This document shows, piece by piece, positions 20,281-34,637 of a stretch of 41,505 bases of DNA. The translations under genes were made by a program, and so were the position numbers. The DNA is from Myxococcus sp. Lineage in GTDB: Bacteria > Myxococcota > Myxococcia > Myxococcales > Myxococcaceae. The notes under the pieces are model-generated. The model searched no databases. It was not told where the DNA came from and saw only the letters and a list, made by a program, of their open reading frames with translations. The DNA lies in contig JACSRE010000094.1 in the NCBI GenBank assembly GCA_014879945.1, positions 1 through 41,505 on the forward strand. The letters are read 5' to 3'. Each line of letters starts with the position of its first letter. Position 1 is the first letter of the stretch.

Positions 20281-21762
20281 GTGCTCCGCCTGGCGTGCCT
20301 CGTCCTCCTGCTGTCGAGCGCGTGCGGGCTGCGGCAGGCCAGGCTCGAGCGCGCGACCGAGCGTGTGTCAGGCCAACGCGCCGACCCCCGCTGTGGACCG
20401 GTCGGCCTCCGCCGCGCCGCGCTCGGGAGCCGCTGGGGCGAGTCCCTGCGCGTGCACGTCAAGACGACGACGCCGCTGTCGGGCGAGGCGCGGGTGCACG
20501 TAGGCGCCCGGCCGTCCCCCCTCAAGGCGTTCTCGGTCACGAAGGACGAGGTCGTCTTCGAGGCGAGCTGGCCGAACGAGAAGCTGAGCGTGCCCTCGGG
20601 GCTGGAGAAGGGCGTGGTGCTCGACGTGACGTTGACCGGCCTCTCGACGCCGAGCGGTGACTGCGAGGGCATCGCGTTCACCGTCGAGCAGGGCGCCTTC
20701 CATCCCTCGGTTGACGAGGCGGCGTGGGTCGCCGAGCTGGTGCGCCGTGGCGGGCCCGACGTCGACGCGTGGCGGGCGCAGCAGACGCCGAAGCCCAGCC
20801 CCCGAGTGACGGTGGCCGCCGCGGCTCCGCGACCGCCGCCGATGCCGCGGGCGCCACTTCGCGTCACGCCCGTCGTCGCAGCGCGTGGCTCCGACGAGCG
20901 CGAGTGGGCGCGGTGGGTCGGCGAAGAAGCCACCGGCGCCGACGCGCTGCGGTGGGCCGAGTGGCCGATGGCGAACATCATCAAGAACGCGGGCGAAGGC
21001 TCGGCGCTGGGCCGAGGCGCGTGGGTGGTGCTGACCAGCCGCGGCGACGACGTTCGCGCCAACACCGAGGCCGCCGCCGCGCACTACCAGGTGCCGCCCC
21101 CTCGCACGGCGCGCGAGCTCGAGCAGTTGCTCACCATCATTCGCAGCGAGGTCGAGACCGACGACGCCGCGATGCTCGCCCTCTTCGCCGGGCGTGAGGT
21201 GACGTTCGCCGCCCTGGCCCGGGCCGGCGCCTCTGCGCACCTCGACGCGCTGGCCGCGGCGCTCCCGAGGCAGAAGGCGCGCGCGGCCGAGGCCACCTCG
21301 CAGGCGTTGATGTTCAGCACCGCGTTCTCACTCTCCTGGCCGGTCGCGGCCACCACGCGGGTCTCGTCTCCCTTCGGCTACCGCGACCACCCGACGCTCG
21401 GCGGCGTGCGGCTGCACACGGGCGTCGATCTGCCGCTCCCCAGAGGCACCGAGGTGCGGGCCACGGCCTCGGGGCTGGTGGTGCGCGCTGGACAGGATCC
21501 GGTGAACGGGCGCTACCTCGTCATCGACCACGGCTTCGGCGTCACCACCGCGTACCTGCACAACACCGAGGTGCTCGTGAGCGAGGGCCAGTGGGTCGCC
21601 GCGGGCGCGCTCGTCTCGTCTTCAGGCAACACGGGACGAAGCACGGGCCCGCACCTGCACTACCAGCTGGAGCTCGAGCACCGGCCCGTCGACCCGCTGC
21701 TGTTCCGAACCACCCGCGACACCAGGTCGGAGCTCGTCGCGACCAACCACCCGCCTCACTGA
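20281..21762 (+). CDS. M23 (LytM) metallopeptidase lipoprotein
   Basis: The GTG start at 20281 is directly followed by a lipoprotein signal ending LLLSSAC, so C15 would be lipidated. Residues 30-170 form a soluble region without a known motif, followed by a Pro-rich linker near residues 170-195. A second soluble region precedes the C-terminal M23 domain. There the zinc ligands are visible: H379 and D383 in RLHTGVDLP, and H460 in GPHLHYQLEL with catalytic H458. The FGYRDHP opening and YLVIDHGFG are family hallmarks. With all residues intact it is probably an active peptidoglycan endopeptidase in the periplasm. It lies 41 bases after the oxidoreductase gene and overlaps the cupin gene tail to tail by 7 bases. 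Length is 493 residues. Confidence 0.88.
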   Translation: MLRLACLVLLLSSACGLRQARLERATERVSGQRADPRCGPVGLRRAALGSRWGESLRVHVKTTTPLSGEARVHVGARPSPLKAFSVTKDEVVFEASWPNEKLSVPSGLEKGVVLDVTLTGLSTPSGDCEGIAFTVEQGAFHPSVDEAAWVAELVRRGGPDVDAWRAQQTPKPSPRVTVAAAAPRPPPMPRAPLRVTPVVAARGSDEREWARWVGEEATGADALRWAEWPMANIIKNAGEGSALGRGAWVVLTSRGDDVRANTEAAAAHYQVPPPRTARELEQLLTIIRSEVETDDAAMLALFAGREVTFAALARAGASAHLDALAAALPRQKARAAEATSQALMFSTAFSLSWPVAATTRVSSPFGYRDHPTLGGVRLHTGVDLPLPRGTEVRATASGLVVRAGQDPVNGRYLVIDHGFGVTTAYLHNTEVLVSEGQWVAAGALVSSSGNTGRSTGPHLHYQLELEHRPVDPLLFRTTRDTRSELVATNHPPH

Positions 21763-26158: not shown

Positions 26159-26264
26159 CGTGAGACCTCCTGGAACCAGCCGGTCACTGGCCGCGCGGGT
26201 GGTGTAGCGCAAGTGTAAACCATTGGCATGTGAGGAAGATTTCGGCTACCGCACGCGCGTCCCC

Positions 26265-26786
26265 ATGAGCTTCTTCACGCGCCTGAAACTCGCGCTGTCC
26301 ATCCTCTTCAGAGGCGATCTGCCGGCCCCGGCCGCGCCCGCCCTGCCCGCGCCAGCCCCCGCTCCGGCCCTGCCTGCGCCAGTCGCCGTCGTGACCCCGG
26401 AGCAACGACACGGCGCGGCGCTCTTCCTCCTCGGCCTGCTCCAGCGAGAAGGCCGCCTCATCGACTTCCTCCAGGAAGACCTCGCGGGCGCCTCGGACGC
26501 CGATGTCGGCGCCGCCGCGCGCGTCGTCCACACCGGCTGCAAGAAGGTGCTCGCCCAGTACCTCGCCCTCGCGCCGGTCGTCACCGACGGTGAAGGCTCG
26601 ACCATCACCGTGCCCCAGGGCTTCGACGCCAGCCGCTTCCGCCTCACCGGCAACGTCACCGGCCAGGGCCCGTGGAAGGGCAGCCTCAAGCACCACGGCT
26701 GGGCCTGCACGAAGATCGAGCTGCCGGCGGTGCCGACCACCGTCGACGTGAAGGTCATCGCTCCCGCTGAAGTCGAGCTGCCGTGA
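26265..26786 (+). CDS. DUF2760 domain protein, first gene of an Hsp70-like operon
   Basis: From ATG 26265 the protein has 173 residues. The first part (MSFFTRLKLALSILFRGDL) is an amphipathic or weak membrane-binding helix, followed by an Ala/Pro-rich linker. The rest (QRHGAALFLLGLLQREGRLI, FLQEDLAGASDADVGAAARVV and the C-terminal GPWKGSLKHHGWACTKIELP) matches my knowledge of DUF2760. Such proteins are found next to Hsp70-like genes, as here. Its stop overlaps the start of the first Hsp70 gene by four bases (GTGA), so the two are probably made together. A role as client, adaptor or membrane tether of the Hsp70 pair is inference; no enzymatic motif is seen. Confidence 0.8.
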   Translation: MSFFTRLKLALSILFRGDLPAPAAPALPAPAPAPALPAPVAVVTPEQRHGAALFLLGLLQREGRLIDFLQEDLAGASDADVGAAARVVHTGCKKVLAQYLALAPVVTDGEGSTITVPQGFDASRFRLTGNVTGQGPWKGSLKHHGWACTKIELPAVPTTVDVKVIAPAEVELP

Positions 26787-28591
26787 CCGCGCGCTACGCC
26801 ATCGGCGTCGATCTCGGCACGACCCACTCGGCCCTCTCGTACATCGCGCTCGACGCCACCGAGGGCCGCGGCCCCAACCAGGCCGTGCTCCCGATTCCGC
26901 AGGTGACGGCGCCCGGCACCGCCGAGGCCCGCCAACTGCTCCCGTCCTTCGTGTACCTCGCCGCCGACGCCGAGTTCCCCAAAGACGCGATGGCGCTGCC
27001 GTGGAAGACCGATCAACACGCCGTCGTCGGCGAGTTCGCCCGCACGCACGGCGCGAAGGTGCCCACCCGGCTGGTGTCGTCGGCCAAGTCGTGGCTGTGC
27101 CACCCGGGCGTCGATCGCCGCGCGAAGGTGCTGCCGTGGCAGGCCCCCGCTGACGTCGCCCGAATCTCGCCCGTCGAGGCCAGCGCGCGCGTGCTCGAGC
27201 ACCTGCGCGCCGCGTGGAACAAGGAGCTCGGCAAGAAGGCGCCGCTCGACGAGCAGGAGCTGATCGTCACCGTGCCCGCGTCGTTCGACGCCGCCGCGAA
27301 GGAGCTGACGCTCGAGGCCGCCACCCAGGCCGGGCTCCCGCGGGTGACCTTGCTCGAGGAGCCCCAGGCCGCCGTCTACGCGTGGCTTGAGGCGATGGGC
27401 GCCGGCTGGCGGAGCCACCTCGAGGCCGGGAGCGTGCTCCTGGTCGTCGACGTCGGCGGCGGCACCTCTGACTTCTCGTTGCTCCGCGTGGGCCAGCAGG
27501 GCGGTGAGCTGACGCTCGAGCGCCTCGCCGTCGGCGACCACATTCTGCTCGGCGGCGACAACATGGATCTCGCGCTCGCCTTCGCGGTGAACGAGCGCTT
27601 CAAGACGGCCGGGAAGACGCTCGACGGGTGGCAGCTCGCCGCCCTGACCCAGGCCTGCCGCGTCGCCAAGGAGCAGCTCTTCTCGAACGACGAGCTCGAC
27701 AAGGCCGCGGTGGCGGTGCCGGGCCGGGGCAGCGCGCTCGTCGGCGGCACGCTCAAGGGCGAAGTCACCCGCGCCGAGCTCACCGCGCTGCTGACCGACG
27801 GCTTCTTCCCCAGGTGCGCCGTCACCGACGTGCCCGCCTCGGCGCGCCGCTCGGGCCTCACCCAGGTCGCCCTCCCCTACGCGCAAGACGCCGGCATCAC
27901 CCGCCACCTCGCGTCGTTCCTCGCGCGTCAGGCCGGCTCGCTGCACCTGGCGACGGGCTTCGCCCAGCCGACGGCGGTGCTCTTCAACGGCGGCGTCTTC
28001 AAGGCCCAGCCGCTCAAGCACCGCGTGCTCGAGGTGCTCAACGGCTGGCTCTCGACGGCCGGCGCGAAGCCCGCGAAGGAGCTGCCCGGGGCCGATCTCG
28101 ATCTCGCCGTCGCGCGTGGCGCGGCGGCCTACGGCTGGGTGAAGAACGGCCACGGCATTCGCATTCGCGGCGGCACCGCGCGCAGCTATTACGTCGGCGT
28201 CGAGGCCGCGATGTTGGCGGTGCCAGGCTACGTGCCTCCCGTGAAGGCCCTGTGCGTCGCGCCCTTCGGCATGGAAGAGGGCACCCAGGCCGACGTGCCG
28301 CCGCAGGAGTTCGGCCTCGTCGTCGGAGAGCCCACGCGCTTCCGCTTCTTCTCGTCGTCCACCCGCCGCGAAGACGTGGTGGGCTCGATGGTCGAGAACG
28401 CCGACTCCGCGAAAGATCTCGAAGAGCTGCCGCCCATCGAGACCTCGCTCGCCGGAAGCCAGGTCGGCCAGCTCGTGCCCGTCAACCTGCAGGCCGCGGT
28501 GACGGAGCTGGGCGCCCTCGAGGTGCGGTGCCTCGAGCGCGGCGGCAAGGGCCAGTGGAAGCTCGAGCTCAACGTTCGCGAGCGGGAGTAG
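26783..28591 (+). CDS. Hsp70 family protein (DnaK-like ATPase), first of a pair
   Basis: The GTG at 26783 overlaps the previous stop as GTGA. The 602-residue protein has the actin-like ATPase fold: phosphate 1 motif VDLGTTHSALSYIAL near the N terminus, LEEPQAAVYAWLE before phosphate 2, and VVDVGGGTSDFSLL near residue 222, then LLGGDNMDLALAF. The substrate-binding half is shorter and more divergent than DnaK's: no clear C-terminal lid or EEVD-like tail is seen. These features fit the YegD/Hsp70-related proteins, which bind ATP but often lack DnaJ/GrpE partners, and none is encoded here. It lies 6 bases from the second Hsp70 gene, suggesting that they act together. Confidence 0.88.
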   Translation: MTARYAIGVDLGTTHSALSYIALDATEGRGPNQAVLPIPQVTAPGTAEARQLLPSFVYLAADAEFPKDAMALPWKTDQHAVVGEFARTHGAKVPTRLVSSAKSWLCHPGVDRRAKVLPWQAPADVARISPVEASARVLEHLRAAWNKELGKKAPLDEQELIVTVPASFDAAAKELTLEAATQAGLPRVTLLEEPQAAVYAWLEAMGAGWRSHLEAGSVLLVVDVGGGTSDFSLLRVGQQGGELTLERLAVGDHILLGGDNMDLALAFAVNERFKTAGKTLDGWQLAALTQACRVAKEQLFSNDELDKAAVAVPGRGSALVGGTLKGEVTRAELTALLTDGFFPRCAVTDVPASARRSGLTQVALPYAQDAGITRHLASFLARQAGSLHLATGFAQPTAVLFNGGVFKAQPLKHRVLEVLNGWLSTAGAKPAKELPGADLDLAVARGAAAYGWVKNGHGIRIRGGTARSYYVGVEAAMLAVPGYVPPVKALCVAPFGMEEGTQADVPPQEFGLVVGEPTRFRFFSSSTRREDVVGSMVENADSAKDLEELPPIETSLAGSQVGQLVPVNLQAAVTELGALEVRCLERGGKGQWKLELNVRERE

Positions 28592-28597
28592 CGCTTC

Positions 28598-31354
28598 ATG
28601 TCGTTCATCATCGGCATCGATCTCGGCACCTCGAACTGCGCGGTCGCCTTCACCGACCCGAAGGCCGGCGCGAGGGCCACCATCACCGACTTCCCCGTGC
28701 CGCAGCTGGTGCGGCCGGGCGAGCAGGCCGCGCGCGCCCTCTTCCCCTCGGTCATCTACCAGCCGGTGGCCGGCGAGTTCCCCGCGGGCTCGGCCTCGAT
28801 GCCGTGGAGCGACGACTCCCGCGTCACCGGTGAGTTCGCGCGCTGGCAGGCCGGCCGCGTTCCGCAGCGCGCGGTGACGTCGGCGAAGAGCTGGCTCATT
28901 CACCCCGGCGTCGATCGCCAGGCGCCGATTCTTCCGTGGGGCGCGCCCGCCGACGTGCCCCGGCTCTCGCCCGTCGAGGCGCAGGCCGAGCTGCTCAGGC
29001 ACGTCGCGCAGGCGTGGAACCGCGCGCACCCCGCGCACCCGCTCGCGCAGCAAGACGTGGTGCTGACCATTCCCGCCTCGTTCGACGAGGCCGCGCGGGC
29101 GTTGACGCTCCAGGCCGCGCGCGACGCCGGCTTCGAGCTGCAGCGCCTCACCCTGCTCGAGGAGCCCCAGGCCGCCTTCTACGACTTCACCTCGCGCCAC
29201 CGCGACACCCTGGCGAAGGCGCTCCACGGCGTGCGGCTGGTGCTGGTGGTGGACGTCGGCGGCGGCACCACCGACTTCTCGCTGGTGCAGGTCGCCATGC
29301 TGCCCGAGGGCCCGGCCCTGCAGCGCCTCGCCGTGGGAGAGCACCTGCTGCTGGGCGGCGACAACATGGACGCGGCGCTGGCGCGCCAGCTCGAGCGCAA
29401 GCTCTTCCCCGACGGGCGCACCTTCTCGGCCGCGCAGTGGGCCCAGGCGCTTCAGCAGGCGCGCATGGCCAAAGAGACGGTGCTGTCGAAGGGCGGCCCC
29501 GACGCGCACGCCGTCTCCATCGTCTCGGGCGGCAGCAAGCTGATCGGCGGCACCCTGTCGTCGCAGCTGACCTACGACGAGGTGGTGCAGAGCGTCGTCG
29601 AGGGCTTCTTCCCGAAGGTGGCGGCCGACGCCGCGCCGATGAGCGCGCCGCGAGGTGGCGTGGTGGAGCTCGGCCTGCCCTTCGCGAAGGACGCCGCCAT
29701 CACCCGGCACCTGGTGGCGTTTCTGCGCGCGCACGCAGACGCGGGCTTCAAGGCGCTCGGCGCGCCAGGGGTCGGGGTGCCCCGGCCCGACGCGATCCTG
29801 CTCAACGGTGGCGTCTTCAACTCACCGACGCTGGCCGACGCGCTCGTCGAGGCGGTGTCGGCGCTCTTCCCCTCGTCGCCGCAGGTGCCGCTCTTGCCGC
29901 ACGACTCGCTCGATCTCGCGGTGGCGCGCGGCGCGGCGTACTCGGGCCTGGCGCGGCGGGCGCTGGGCAAGAAGATCGGCGGGGGCGCGCCCCGGGCCTT
30001 CTACGCGCTCGTCAGCACCGGCTCGAATGAGAAGCAGGGCGTGTGCCTGGTGCCGCGCGGGCTCGAAGAGGGCGCGACGGTGGAGCTGAAGGAGCGCGAG
30101 TTTCAGCTCACCCTCGGCCGCCCGGTGCAGTTCCAGCTCTTCTCGACGACGGCCGATCGCCTCGACGTGGCGGGCGCGCTGGTGTCGCTCGAGGACGAGC
30201 AGTTCAAGCCCCTGCCGCCGATCCACACCATCCTCTCGGGCGCGAAGGGCAGCACCATCGGCGTGCACCTGTCGGCCACGCTGTCGGAGGTGGGCACGCT
30301 GGCGCTCGCGGCGCTCGCCGGCGAGCAGCGCTGGCGGCTGGAGTTCGAGCTCCGCGGCGCCGCGCGCAGCCAGGACATCACCGTCACCGAGTCGATGCCG
30401 GCCCGCTTCGCCGAGGCCTCGACCGAGGTGGAGCGCGTGTTCGGCACCAGGCCGCTCCCGGTGAAGCCGCAAGACGTCAAGCAGCTGTTCAAGACGCTCG
30501 AGCGCATTCTGGGGCCGCGCGAGACGTGGCGCCTGCCGGTGCTCCGCGAGCTGTGGACGGCGCTGGCCGCCGGGGTGTCGAAGCGCCGCCGCTCGGTGGA
30601 CCACGAGAAGGTGATGTACCAGCTGCTCGGCTACGCGCTGCGCCCGGGCGTGGGCTACCCGCTCGACGCGTGGCGGTGCGAGCAGACGTTCGCGCTGTTC
30701 AAGGAGCAGGTCACCAACCACGGCGAGCAGGCGGTGTGGGCCGAGTTCTGGGTGCTGTGGCGACGCATCGCCAGCGGGCTGAGCGAGGCGGCGCAGCAGG
30801 CCATCTACGCGGTGCTCGAGCCGCACCTGGCGCGGCGGGTGCCGGTGGGCCTCCCGGTGCCGAAGGAGAAGCTGAAGGGCATTCAGCCGCAGGCGCTGGA
30901 GGAGATGGTGCGCTGCGCGGCGTCGCTGGAGCTGCTGCCGGTGGGGAAGAAGGCCGAGCTGGGCGCGTGGGTCGCCTCGCGCGTGGGCGCGCCCGACACC
31001 GTCGGCGGGCCGTGGGCGTGGGCCCTGGGCCGACTGGGCGCGCGGGTGCCCGTGCATGGCGCCGCGCACCGCGTGGTGAGCGCCGAGACGGCCGAGGCGT
31101 GGATTGCGCAGCTGCTCTCGCTCGACCCCAAGCGGCACGACACGGCGGGCTTCGCGCTCGCGCTCCTGTCGCGCAAGACGGGCGACCGGGTGCGCGACGT
31201 GGACGAGGCGTCGCGCGCGAAGGTGCTGGCGCACTTCGAGGCGATCGACGCGCCCCCCTCGTGGGCGCTGTTGGTGAAGGACGTCGTTCAGCTCTCGGCC
31301 GCCGACGAAGCGCGGGCGCTCGGAGACACCTTGCCGGTCGGGCTCAGCCTGTAG
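28598..31354 (+). CDS. Hsp70-like protein with long C-terminal DUF3731-type extension
   Basis: This 918-residue protein begins with an Hsp70 ATPase domain: GIDLGTSNCAVAFTD, LLEEPQAAFYDF and VVDVGGGTTDFSLVQ near residue 221, then LLLGGDNMDAALARQ. Residues about 400-600 correspond to a divergent substrate-binding region (QLFSTTADRLDVAGALVSLE). From about residue 605 a helical extension of more than 300 residues starts at SMPARFAEASTEVERVFGTR and includes LERILGPRETWRLPVLRELW and WAEFWVLWRRIASGLS. This matches the DUF3731 region of DnaK-related proteins as I know them. The extension may replace the normal lid or co-chaperone contact. It is similar to but clearly distinct from the preceding Hsp70, so the pair may form a heteromer. 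There is no evidence of damage. Confidence 0.87.
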   Translation: MSFIIGIDLGTSNCAVAFTDPKAGARATITDFPVPQLVRPGEQAARALFPSVIYQPVAGEFPAGSASMPWSDDSRVTGEFARWQAGRVPQRAVTSAKSWLIHPGVDRQAPILPWGAPADVPRLSPVEAQAELLRHVAQAWNRAHPAHPLAQQDVVLTIPASFDEAARALTLQAARDAGFELQRLTLLEEPQAAFYDFTSRHRDTLAKALHGVRLVLVVDVGGGTTDFSLVQVAMLPEGPALQRLAVGEHLLLGGDNMDAALARQLERKLFPDGRTFSAAQWAQALQQARMAKETVLSKGGPDAHAVSIVSGGSKLIGGTLSSQLTYDEVVQSVVEGFFPKVAADAAPMSAPRGGVVELGLPFAKDAAITRHLVAFLRAHADAGFKALGAPGVGVPRPDAILLNGGVFNSPTLADALVEAVSALFPSSPQVPLLPHDSLDLAVARGAAYSGLARRALGKKIGGGAPRAFYALVSTGSNEKQGVCLVPRGLEEGATVELKEREFQLTLGRPVQFQLFSTTADRLDVAGALVSLEDEQFKPLPPIHTILSGAKGSTIGVHLSATLSEVGTLALAALAGEQRWRLEFELRGAARSQDITVTESMPARFAEASTEVERVFGTRPLPVKPQDVKQLFKTLERILGPRETWRLPVLRELWTALAAGVSKRRRSVDHEKVMYQLLGYALRPGVGYPLDAWRCEQTFALFKEQVTNHGEQAVWAEFWVLWRRIASGLSEAAQQAIYAVLEPHLARRVPVGLPVPKEKLKGIQPQALEEMVRCAASLELLPVGKKAELGAWVASRVGAPDTVGGPWAWALGRLGARVPVHGAAHRVVSAETAEAWIAQLLSLDPKRHDTAGFALALLSRKTGDRVRDVDEASRAKVLAHFEAIDAPPSWALLVKDVVQLSAADEARALGDTLPVGLSL

Positions 31355-32198: not shown

Positions 32199-34637
32199 GT
32201 GTCGCCTGACTCACGCACCGGTCACCTGCTCACCAGGTTGGTGAACTTCAGCTTCGCCCGGCCTGCGCTGGTGTTCCTGGTGCTGCTGACCGTGGGCGGC
32301 GCCTGCGCCTTCATCGCCAGCAAGCTGGGCTTCCGCGGTGACTTCATCGAGCTGCTGCCCGACTCGACCCGCGAGGTGCAGGACCTCAAGATCGTTCAGG
32401 AGATGGCCGGCGGCGGCGGCTACTTCGTGGTGCGCGTTCGCGGAGCCTCGAAAGAGAACCGGCGCGTCTACGCCACCACCCTCGCCGCGAAGCTCGAGCA
32501 AGAGAAGGAGCTGGTCTCGTACGTCGAGTACCACTTCGACGCGTCGTTCTTCTCGACCCGCGCGCTCTGGTTGTTGTCGGCCGAGAAGCTGAACGCGCTC
32601 GCCGACGACCTCGACGCCCGCATCACCTGGGAGAAGCAGCGCGCCCTGCCCGGCTTCGTCGACCTGCTCGGCGAGGCGCCCCCGCCCACGCTCGAAGAGC
32701 TCGAGAAGAAGTACGGCAGCCAGGCCCGCACCAGCGAGTACATCGAGGGCCGCACCGCGCCTGAGCTGTACATGTTCGTCAAGCCCACGAAGCAGGCGGG
32801 CGATCTCGACTTCAACCGGCAGATCCTCACGCGGGTGACCGAGGTGACGGCCTCGCTGAAGGCCCAGCACCCGGACATCGAGACCGACTTCACCGGCGCC
32901 TACGTCGCGCGCGTCGAAGAAGACGACGTGATGCGCGAAGACCTGGGCCGCGCGGGCCTGGTCTCGTCGATGCTCGCGCTCACCATCATTCTCCTGTCGA
33001 CCCGCCGCATCACCGCGCTGTGGGTGGTGGCCCTGCCGGTCGCGCTCGGCATCTCGGCGACCTTCGCCTTCGCGTACTTCACCATCGGGCACCTCAACCC
33101 CGTCACCGGCTTCCTCGGCGCGATCCTCGTCGGCCTGGGGCTCGAGTACGGCACACACCTGGCCATGCGGTACTGGGAGGAGCGCCGCGACAGCGACGTC
33201 TTGCCCGCGCTGCGCATCACCGTCATCGGCACCTTCCCCGGCGCCCTCACCAGCGCCACCACCAACTCGGTGGCGTTCCTGGTGCTGCTGATGAGCGACT
33301 TCGACGCGTTCAAGCAGTTCGGCAGCATCGCCGGCTTCGGGGTGATGGCCACCGTCATCTCGGCCTACGTGATGGCGCCCGCGATTCTTCGCCTGAGCGA
33401 GCGCGTGCGGCCCTTCAAGGCGCGCCCCGTCTCGCTCGGCGCCGACGGCAAAGAGAAGTCGCTCCCGCGGATTCCCACCGGCGCGCTGGTGGGGCTGATC
33501 GTCGCCATCACCGCCGTGGCGGCCGTCTCGGCGACCTACGCCCCGAAGGCGTCGTTCGAGAAGGACTTGAAGCGCCTCAAGGGCAAGTCGCCGGCCACCG
33601 AGCTCGACGAGGCCATCAACGAGCAGCTGGGCATCATCATGACGCCGGCCATCGTGGCGGTGAAGTCGCTCGACGAGGCCCGCCAGCTCGCCGCCCTCTC
33701 GCGCGCCTTCAAGACGGAGCGTGGCGCGGCGTCGGCGATTCAGGAGATCGCCTCGCTCAACGACTTCTACCCGGTGCCGTCCGAGGTCGAGGCGCGCCGG
33801 GCCGGCATCGCCCGGGTCGGCGCCGTGCTCCAGCGCGTGCCCGAGTCGATCCGCACCGGCAAGGACAAGGACCGCTTCGACTCGCTGGCGAAGATGCTCG
33901 AGTCGCAGCCCTGGGGCCCCGCCGAGGTGCCCAACGAGCTGCGCCGGCGCTTCGAGCCCATCAAGGGCAGCGGCACCTTCGTGCTCATCTTCCCCGCGCT
34001 CACCGGCTACAACGCCGACTCGCTCGACAAGTGGGCCGCCGATCTCGACGAGGTGCTGGCGCGCGGGCTGAAGCTCGGCCTCGACCCGCACGTGCTCGAC
34101 ACCAACCGCATCGCCTCGCGCATCTTCACCATCGTGCGGCAAGACGGGCCCTTCATCATGGGCGCCGCCGCGCTGGTGGTGTTCGTGATGATCCTCATCA
34201 GCCTGCGCTCCTTCACCCGCACGGTGCTGGTGACGGTGCCGCTGTACATCGGCATCACCTGCCTCTTCGGCGCGATGCAGCTGTTCGACGTGAAGTTGAA
34301 CTTCCTCAACGTGGTGGTGCTGCCCAACCTGCTCACCATCGCCGTCGACAACTCGGTGCACCTGTACCACCGGTACATGGAAGAGGGCCCGGGCTCGATC
34401 GGCCACGCCCTCAAGCACACCGGCTTCGCGTCGTTCGTCGCCACCTGCAGCAACGCCGCCGGCTACGCCGCGCTCTTCGTCGCGCGCCACGAGGGCCTGC
34501 GGAGCATCGCCTGGCTGGCGGTGCTGGGCGTGCTGTGCTCGTTCATGGGCACCACCATTCTCTTCCCGGCGGTGCTCGAGCTGGTCGAGCGCCTCAAGCT
34601 CAAGGCGCGCCCCGCCGTCGAGCCGGTCGCGAAGTAG
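32199..34637 (+). CDS. RND superfamily (MMPL/HpnN-like) exporter
   Basis: The GTG at 32199 has GAGGTGAAG just upstream. The 812-residue protein shows the RND pattern: one helix (PALVFLVLLTVGGACAFIA), a large periplasmic loop (about residues 45-245), five clustered helices around GLVSSMLALTIILLS and LGAILVGLGLEYGTHLAMRYWEER, then a second helix-loop-five-helix half. Helix 4 carries G-x-x-x-x-Y/D motifs (GLGLEYGTHLAMRY and, in the second half, LLTIAVDNSVHLYHRYMEE) that fit the proton-relay asparagine/aspartate region. Members of this MMPL/HpnN group export lipids such as hopanoids. The cargo here is unknown. Its 3' end meets the GNAT gene tail to tail, 3 bases apart. Confidence 0.88.
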   Translation: MSPDSRTGHLLTRLVNFSFARPALVFLVLLTVGGACAFIASKLGFRGDFIELLPDSTREVQDLKIVQEMAGGGGYFVVRVRGASKENRRVYATTLAAKLEQEKELVSYVEYHFDASFFSTRALWLLSAEKLNALADDLDARITWEKQRALPGFVDLLGEAPPPTLEELEKKYGSQARTSEYIEGRTAPELYMFVKPTKQAGDLDFNRQILTRVTEVTASLKAQHPDIETDFTGAYVARVEEDDVMREDLGRAGLVSSMLALTIILLSTRRITALWVVALPVALGISATFAFAYFTIGHLNPVTGFLGAILVGLGLEYGTHLAMRYWEERRDSDVLPALRITVIGTFPGALTSATTNSVAFLVLLMSDFDAFKQFGSIAGFGVMATVISAYVMAPAILRLSERVRPFKARPVSLGADGKEKSLPRIPTGALVGLIVAITAVAAVSATYAPKASFEKDLKRLKGKSPATELDEAINEQLGIIMTPAIVAVKSLDEARQLAALSRAFKTERGAASAIQEIASLNDFYPVPSEVEARRAGIARVGAVLQRVPESIRTGKDKDRFDSLAKMLESQPWGPAEVPNELRRRFEPIKGSGTFVLIFPALTGYNADSLDKWAADLDEVLARGLKLGLDPHVLDTNRIASRIFTIVRQDGPFIMGAAALVVFVMILISLRSFTRTVLVTVPLYIGITCLFGAMQLFDVKLNFLNVVVLPNLLTIAVDNSVHLYHRYMEEGPGSIGHALKHTGFASFVATCSNAAGYAALFVARHEGLRSIAWLAVLGVLCSFMGTTILFPAVLELVERLKLKARPAVEPVAK

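Follow-up and report, generated by a model that had tools for sequence, protein, structure and literature searches.

A conserved DUF2760 and double Hsp70 gene unit from Myxococcus that may encode a membrane-tethered two-Hsp70 machine

How are two divergent Hsp70-like ATPases used by a bacterium when their genes form an operon with a DUF2760 gene and without DnaJ or GrpE? This question is raised by a stretch of 41,505 nucleotides (contig JACSRE010000094.1 of Myxococcus sp. assembly GCA_014879945.1; "the window" below), in which a DUF2760 gene is followed by two Hsp70-like genes, here termed H1 and H2 (Table 1). The positions assigned to the three genes by a first-pass annotation, which had been made from the sequence alone, were rechecked and found correct, and each protein had a Pfam match. 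The matches to DUF2760 (PF10816) and DUF3731 (PF12531) exceeded the curated Pfam cut-off of 25 bits for these families; the latter spans residues 666-918 of H2 (277.5 bits). The GTG start codon of H1 lies inside the DUF2760 stop (GTGA, 4-base overlap, 26783-26786), and the H1 stop and H2 start are separated by 6 bases (28592-28597); both features, already described in the first-pass annotation, are real. No J-domain or GrpE match was obtained among the genes of the operon, as had been claimed, and the 11 J-domain and 2 GrpE matches of the genome all lie outside it.

DUF2760, H1 and H2 form one conserved unit, whose genes have stayed together through inheritance and transfer in several phyla. 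DUF2760 was found in 32 of 40 relatives searched. The 31 relative loci taken comprised every DUF2760 match except that of the window's own genome; H1 followed DUF2760 in 30 of them (exception L039) and H2 followed DUF2760-H1 in 24, contig ends accounting for part of the remainder. A wider scan with one genome per species gave at least 549 DUF2760 relatives, of which the best 80 were taken as loci, from Myxococcota, Betaproteobacteria, Gammaproteobacteria and records labelled Verrucomicrobia and Lentisphaerae. H1 followed DUF2760 in all 80 of these best loci, with merely an H1 fragment in L085. H2 was present in 67 of the 80, the flank was short in six, and H2 was absent over at least 3 kb in seven. 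Nine genomes with an H2-less locus carried DUF3731 elsewhere in six cases (one a fragment) and lacked it in three (L099, L120, L085). Of 74 loci measured, 41 shared the 4-base overlap of DUF2760 and H1; in 43 of 64, the H1 and H2 genes overlapped or were at most 20 bases apart.

Among 156 Myxococcota genomes, DUF3731 was found in 114 and DUF2760 in 111; 110 had both, four DUF3731 only, one DUF2760 only and 41 neither. Both families lay on the same contig within 10 kb in 97 of these 110 genomes and on different contigs in the other 13. The 276 genomes of the gammaproteobacterial class to which a Methylococcales genome belongs included 12 with DUF3731 and 11 with DUF2760 (both in 11, DUF3731 only in one, neither in 264). 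Among 72,556 plasmid records, DUF2760 was found in 11 and DUF3731 in 10, all 10 being among the 11, and the complete triple was present on two conjugative Bradyrhizobium plasmids, on one beside trb genes and on the other about 1 kb upstream of groES-groEL. Independent occurrence of the genes in most genomes was not seen in Myxococcota, in the gammaproteobacterial class or on plasmids, and the co-occurrence counts in genomes and plasmids give good support to a dedicated unit of three parts.

On the conjugative megaplasmid pCB82_1 (L142, 14213-16257), the triple is followed by groES-groEL, which may constitute a mobile chaperone island. No fourth conserved partner gene was found among the flanking open reading frames (ORFs) of the 80 loci; the largest cluster comprised 13 of the 80, all Burkholderiales-type (Massilia, Duganella, Rugamonas, Trinickia). 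Scanning the same loci for J-domain motifs gave a single chance-looking match. Natural DUF2760-Hsp70 fusions (779 amino acids in G033, 851 in G029) were rejected on the basis of the match positions, which lie in overlapping open frames in different frames.

The two Hsp70-like proteins were compared by an alignment of 51 H1 and 52 H2 sequences with the genome's own DnaK. Residue names follow E. coli DnaK numbering, mapped by motif. The equivalents of D8, T11, K70, E171, D194, T199 and D201 were invariant in all 103 sequences. The nucleotide-binding domain (NBD) thus has an intact active site in both proteins, and the statement that both keep the ATPase motifs holds at every catalytic position checked. 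NCBIfam and PDB searches with H1 and H2 gave matches only to HscA- and DnaK-type ATPase domains, far under the NCBIfam cut-offs, and H1 had a secondary match to the MreB family (2e-08). PF00012 matched 19 times in the genome, in which a large Hsp70 expansion is apparent, with 13 strong matches (>200 bits) besides H1 and H2.

Residues V389-D393 of DnaK couple its domains, and R167 and N170 contact the J-domain. The V389-D393 equivalent in H1 is I-R-G-G-T, and that in H2 is I-x-G-G-[S/A/T], with T at the D393 position in 51 of 51 H1 and S, A or T in 52 of 52 H2; a VLLLD-type hydrophobic linker is absent from both. Since H1 and DnaK have equally many residues between AVAxGAA and the first strand of the substrate-binding domain (SBD), the linker aligns without a gap. 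The N170 equivalent is E in all 103 sequences, and R167 is retained as R in 4 of 51 H1 and 28 of 52 H2.

A tree was calculated from 17 of the 51 H1 and 18 of the 52 H2 sequences (every third row) together with 16 other PF00012-matching proteins of the window's genome. All sampled H1 and H2 fell on one branch apart from the 16 other Hsp70-like proteins (support 100/99, length 3.45). H1 formed one group, with one H2 row (L086) splitting off basally on the H1 side. The tree was rooted at its midpoint, and placement via long branches is unsure. It identifies H1 and H2 as products of an ancient duplication that share a long branch. At the near-invariant columns 493, 497 and 598, all in the SBD, three H1 proteins encoded at Chromatiaceae loci without H2 deviated from nearly all others. 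Control trios around each of the 75 other H1 had on average 0.08 such columns (maximum 2), and in H2 these columns are variable or unlike H1. They may be a hint leading to an H1-H2 contact.

The structure model of H2 had a mean predicted local distance difference test (pLDDT) of 86.8 and a predicted template modelling score (pTM) of 0.70. The NBD is followed by an SBD-beta sandwich that ends near residue 583; after a loop modelled with low confidence (585-597), helices run from 604 to 908. Residues 1-587 align with NBD and SBD-beta of DnaK and BiP as one block of about 465 residues (Z 33-38; best Z 37.7, root-mean-square deviation (rmsd) 4.0). Beyond residue 587 the protein is helical and unmatched in the structure comparison of the whole model, which barely probed that region. 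By sequence comparison, H1 would consist of the NBD and an SBD-beta-like domain and end where the SBD-beta of H2 ends. The alpha-helical Hsp70 lid is missing in H1, and at its place H2 has a different helical domain of about 300 residues. The extension of over 300 residues ascribed to H2 is therefore right in size; it replaces the lid and does not follow one.

The DUF2760 protein comprises an N-terminal helix, a variable proline-rich linker and a conserved domain of about 125 residues. Its model (mean pLDDT 89.0, pTM 0.66) shows the N-terminal helix, a helical hairpin and few strands; no convincing PDB match was found for it (best VIA Z 4.6 over 59 residues at 4.7 A; no Foldseek match with E <= 0.001). 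Most DUF2760 N-termini follow the pattern MSFFxRLxLAxxxxF. At the same position, three loci (L097, L108, L116) have a strongly hydrophobic helix (19-residue hydropathy 2.9-3.3), and L110 has such a helix ahead of the start that had initially been assumed. Each of these four transmembrane-type helices is followed by basic residues. According to the positive-inside rule, positive residues mark the cytoplasmic side, which places the conserved DUF2760 domain in the cytoplasm. Of the amphipathic N-terminus proposed by the first-pass annotation, the helix is borne out by the model, and the amphipathicity is modest; the membrane link through DUF2760 gains indirect support from the true transmembrane helix in Methylococcales-type loci. 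Whether H1 lies nearby (48 of 50 loci) or more than 20 bases away (23 of 24), nearly all DUF2760 proteins retain the C-terminal tail APAEVEL, so that it looks like a protein-level constraint and not a ribosome-binding-site effect.

A described function for these families had not been known to the first-pass annotation. This was incomplete, because deletion phenotypes have been published for MXAN_5323 of M. xanthus (Pan et al. 2021, PMC8265645), almost certainly an orthologue of H2. Six hsp70 genes were studied there and five were deleted. MXAN_5323 is described as a protein of 925 amino acids with an NBD-only annotation, distant from DnaK. It was dispensable; its deletion led to fewer spores and poorer H2O2 survival, with normal motility and predation, and the gene could not replace dnaK in an E. 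coli mutant. A term search of the main text of this paper (PMC8265645) returned no operon partner, neighbouring locus tag or DUF name. The orthology was derived from size, annotation and genome position. H2 of Myxococcus dinghuensis (L050) has 925 codons, no NBD-only Hsp70 match other than H2 lies in a frame of about 936 codons in two Myxococcus genomes, and the gene lies at about 72-73% of the genome in two single-contig genomes taken as Myxococcus, which fits gene 5323 of about 7,350 (7,348 given). Searches of one literature library for DUF2760 and DUF3731 by name, and for MXAN_5321, MXAN_5322, MXAN_5324 and MXAN_5325, found no paper. Vibrio cholerae VC1373-VC1375, likened here by gene names alone, is also a three-gene unit with two DnaK-related genes. 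In published V. cholerae data, VC1374 is listed among in-biofilm repressed genes, its transcript differs between the wild type and a vc1639 mutant, and activation of the VC1375 promoter by HapR was seen both in vivo and in vitro.

How might such a unit work? As a tentative answer, to which we would give somewhat less than an even chance, we propose a membrane-tethered two-Hsp70 machine with DUF2760 as recruiter, in which H1 and H2 act on each other outside a DnaJ/GrpE cycle and divide the labour as Hsp110 and Hsp70 do. The DUF2760 protein would be held at the cytoplasmic face of the inner membrane through its N-terminal helix and would recruit the lid-less H1, possibly through its conserved C-terminal tail. 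H1 would then cooperate with its ancient duplicate H2, whose large helical domain takes the place of the lid. Judged by their active sites, both would bind and probably hydrolyse ATP. They would probably stand outside the DnaJ/GrpE cycle, because both have lost the linker of DnaK and an invariant contact to the J-domain. By analogy, they may act on each other like eukaryotic Hsp110 on Hsp70, one holding substrate and speeding nucleotide exchange on the other. Their task may be to protect or remodel membrane-near proteins during oxidative and developmental stress. The analysis shows the conserved unit, its domain layout, the intact active sites, the loss of the linker and the ancient pairing; we infer the location at the membrane, assembly into a complex, J-independence, the sharing of tasks after the manner of Hsp110 and the type of client. 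The fuller version, an inner-membrane Hsp70/Hsp110-like heteropair off the J-protein/GrpE cycle that arose by one ancient duplication and moved as a unit between phyla and on conjugative plasmids, appears doubtful as a whole.

The pair can be set beside several known systems. The NBD and SBD-beta fold and the catalytic residues are common to DnaK/BiP and the pair (for H1 the fold by homology to H2). H1 differs in the absence of the alpha lid and H2 in carrying DUF3731 at its place, and both have the changed linker and N170E. The model for a shorter and a longer Hsp70 homologue acting as partners is Hsp70 with Hsp110 (Sse1). The Hsp110 NBD (6gfa), which is among the top NBD rows of the structure comparison, superposes on the H2 model with Z 32.9 and rmsd 3.2 over 350 residues; the long part of H2, however, is DUF3731 and not an extended lid. 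The pair is not placed in the Hsp110 family on this evidence; it may work in a like manner. Ssz1 is a lid-less Hsp70 tied to a partner, which is a J-protein. The core of the ribosome-associated complex (RAC; 6sr6), to which Ssz1 belongs, was among the H2 model matches (rank 35), but no J-domain partner was found by the motif scan of the 80 DUF2760 loci.

Several observations weigh against the proposed machine. DUF2760-H1 occurs without any DUF3731 in the three genomes named above, two of them Chromatiaceae, and without H2 nearby on the Thiodictyon plasmid pTs485, so H2 is not always needed. The N-terminal helix of the window's DUF2760 is merely modestly amphipathic (maximum 18-residue moment 0.20). 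Foldseek puts DnaK above Hsp110 for the H2 model (Sse1, 2qxl, at rank 37), so that a special likeness of H2 to Hsp110 is not apparent. The retention of R167 in 28 of 52 H2 makes J-protein docking to H2 possible. Two of the three H2-less H1 proteins are 92% identical and all three are from one family, so that shared ancestry may explain columns 493, 497 and 598; the changes there are mild. Finally, three other deleted non-canonical hsp70 genes gave the MXAN_5323 phenotype too (PMC8265645), so that the effect is not specific.

The last point would also suit H1 and H2 being separate non-canonical Hsp70 holdases with a common promoter that use the ordinary DnaJ/GrpE, DUF2760 being a regulator or client. 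The 11 J-domain and 2 GrpE matches in the genome and the H1 genes without H2 fit this as well, but the strict co-occurrence of DUF2760 and DUF3731, their co-transfer on plasmids, the retention of an unlinked H2 in six of nine genomes (one a fragment) and the loss of the DnaK linker and N170 do not, and we regard it as unlikely, if with some weight. Also rather unlikely is that the pair is no chaperone but an ATP switch or scaffold with the Hsp70/actin fold, located at the membrane and serving signalling or envelope assembly, with the SBD-like part and DUF3731 as protein-binding arms. Such a role would agree with the MreB-family match of H1, the loss of the VLLLD linker, which couples ATP to peptide binding in DnaK, the separate large helical domain DUF3731 and the DUF2760 anchor; yet NBD and SBD-beta of H2 superpose on DnaK/BiP as one block, and the oxidative-stress phenotype suits a chaperone.

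It appears improbable that the core machine consists of DUF2760-H1, to which H2 would be added as an optional adaptor widening the substrate range. The presence of H2 (DUF3731) in 110 of 111 and 11 of 11 genomes with DUF2760 argues against it, despite the adjacency of DUF2760 and H1 in 80 of 80 best loci against 67 with H2 and the occurrence of DUF2760-H1 alone in Chromatiaceae. An anti-phage defence system was rejected as very improbable. On pTs485 (L141, 1-16366), DUF2760-H1 without H2 does lie amid annotated anti-phage, VapC and TIR-domain genes; PADLOC, however, gave just weak PDC-M61B matches confined to the shared ATPase domain and no specific model match, no phage record contained DUF2760, and the unit is broadly conserved on the chromosomes of Myxococcota. 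Should H1 and H2 regulate one another without J-protein or GrpE, bacteria would have a second way to run an Hsp70 cycle. With its linker lost and its active site intact, the pair offers a natural test of how ATP use and client binding are coupled, and the presence of the unit in genetically tractable Myxococcus makes the question directly testable.

Table 1. Positions of the operon genes, protein segments and upstream block in the window
Feature	Position	Strand	Basis
Upstream non-coding block, candidate promoter or operator	26211..26250	+	Alignment of 9 sequences
DUF2760 gene (173 amino acids)	26265..26786	+	PF10816 match 6.5e-49, 165.3 bits
DUF2760 N-terminal helix, residues 3-15, presumed membrane-binding	26271..26309	+	Model, hydropathy comparison
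DUF2760 C-terminal tail APAEVELP, candidate docking peptide	26760..26783	+	Conserved across loci
H1 gene, Hsp70-like ATPase (602 amino acids)	26783..28591	+	PF00012 HSP70 match 3.8e-20
H1 interdomain linker I-R-G-G-T, residues 461-465, replaces DnaK VLLLD	28163..28177	+	Alignment, no gap
H2 gene, Hsp70-like ATPase (918 amino acids) with C-terminal DUF3731	28598..31354	+	PF12531 1.6e-82, HSP70 5.7e-14
H2 interdomain linker I-G-G-G-A, residues 460-464	29975..29989	+	Alignment
H2 SBD-beta-like sandwich, residues 467-583	29996..30346	+	Model
H2 all-helical C-terminal domain, residues 604-918, includes DUF3731 (666-918), at lid position	30407..31351	+	Pfam, model

The upstream block of about 40 bases, with the core AACC[A/G]TTGGCA, is conserved in close relatives, unlike the bases around it; comparison by eye indicated that it is not common to Myxococcus or other phyla. 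An ORF of 1162 amino acids on the minus strand (26246-29734) was read as a presumed mirror ORF of G+C-rich coding DNA. No flanking gene was conserved with the operon across the lineages of the 80 loci. Genes for an MMPL-family transporter and an M23 peptidase lie nearby in the window (32199-34637 and 20281-21762). Two Duganella-type loci (L113, 17723-20557, and L098, 16593-19370, both on the minus strand) have IcmF/TssM-type and ClpB/ClpV-type genes downstream of the operon by Pfam; these neighbours resemble type VI secretion clusters and are lineage-specific. In a metagenome-assembled genome (MAG; L070, 12234-17367), about 2.4 kb of extra DNA splits H2 and H1 has a frame break, due to an insertion element or an assembly error. 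In a Methylococcaceae MAG (L110, 12502-14774), three unrelated ORFs, one of them methyltransferase-like by eye, lie between H1 and H2.

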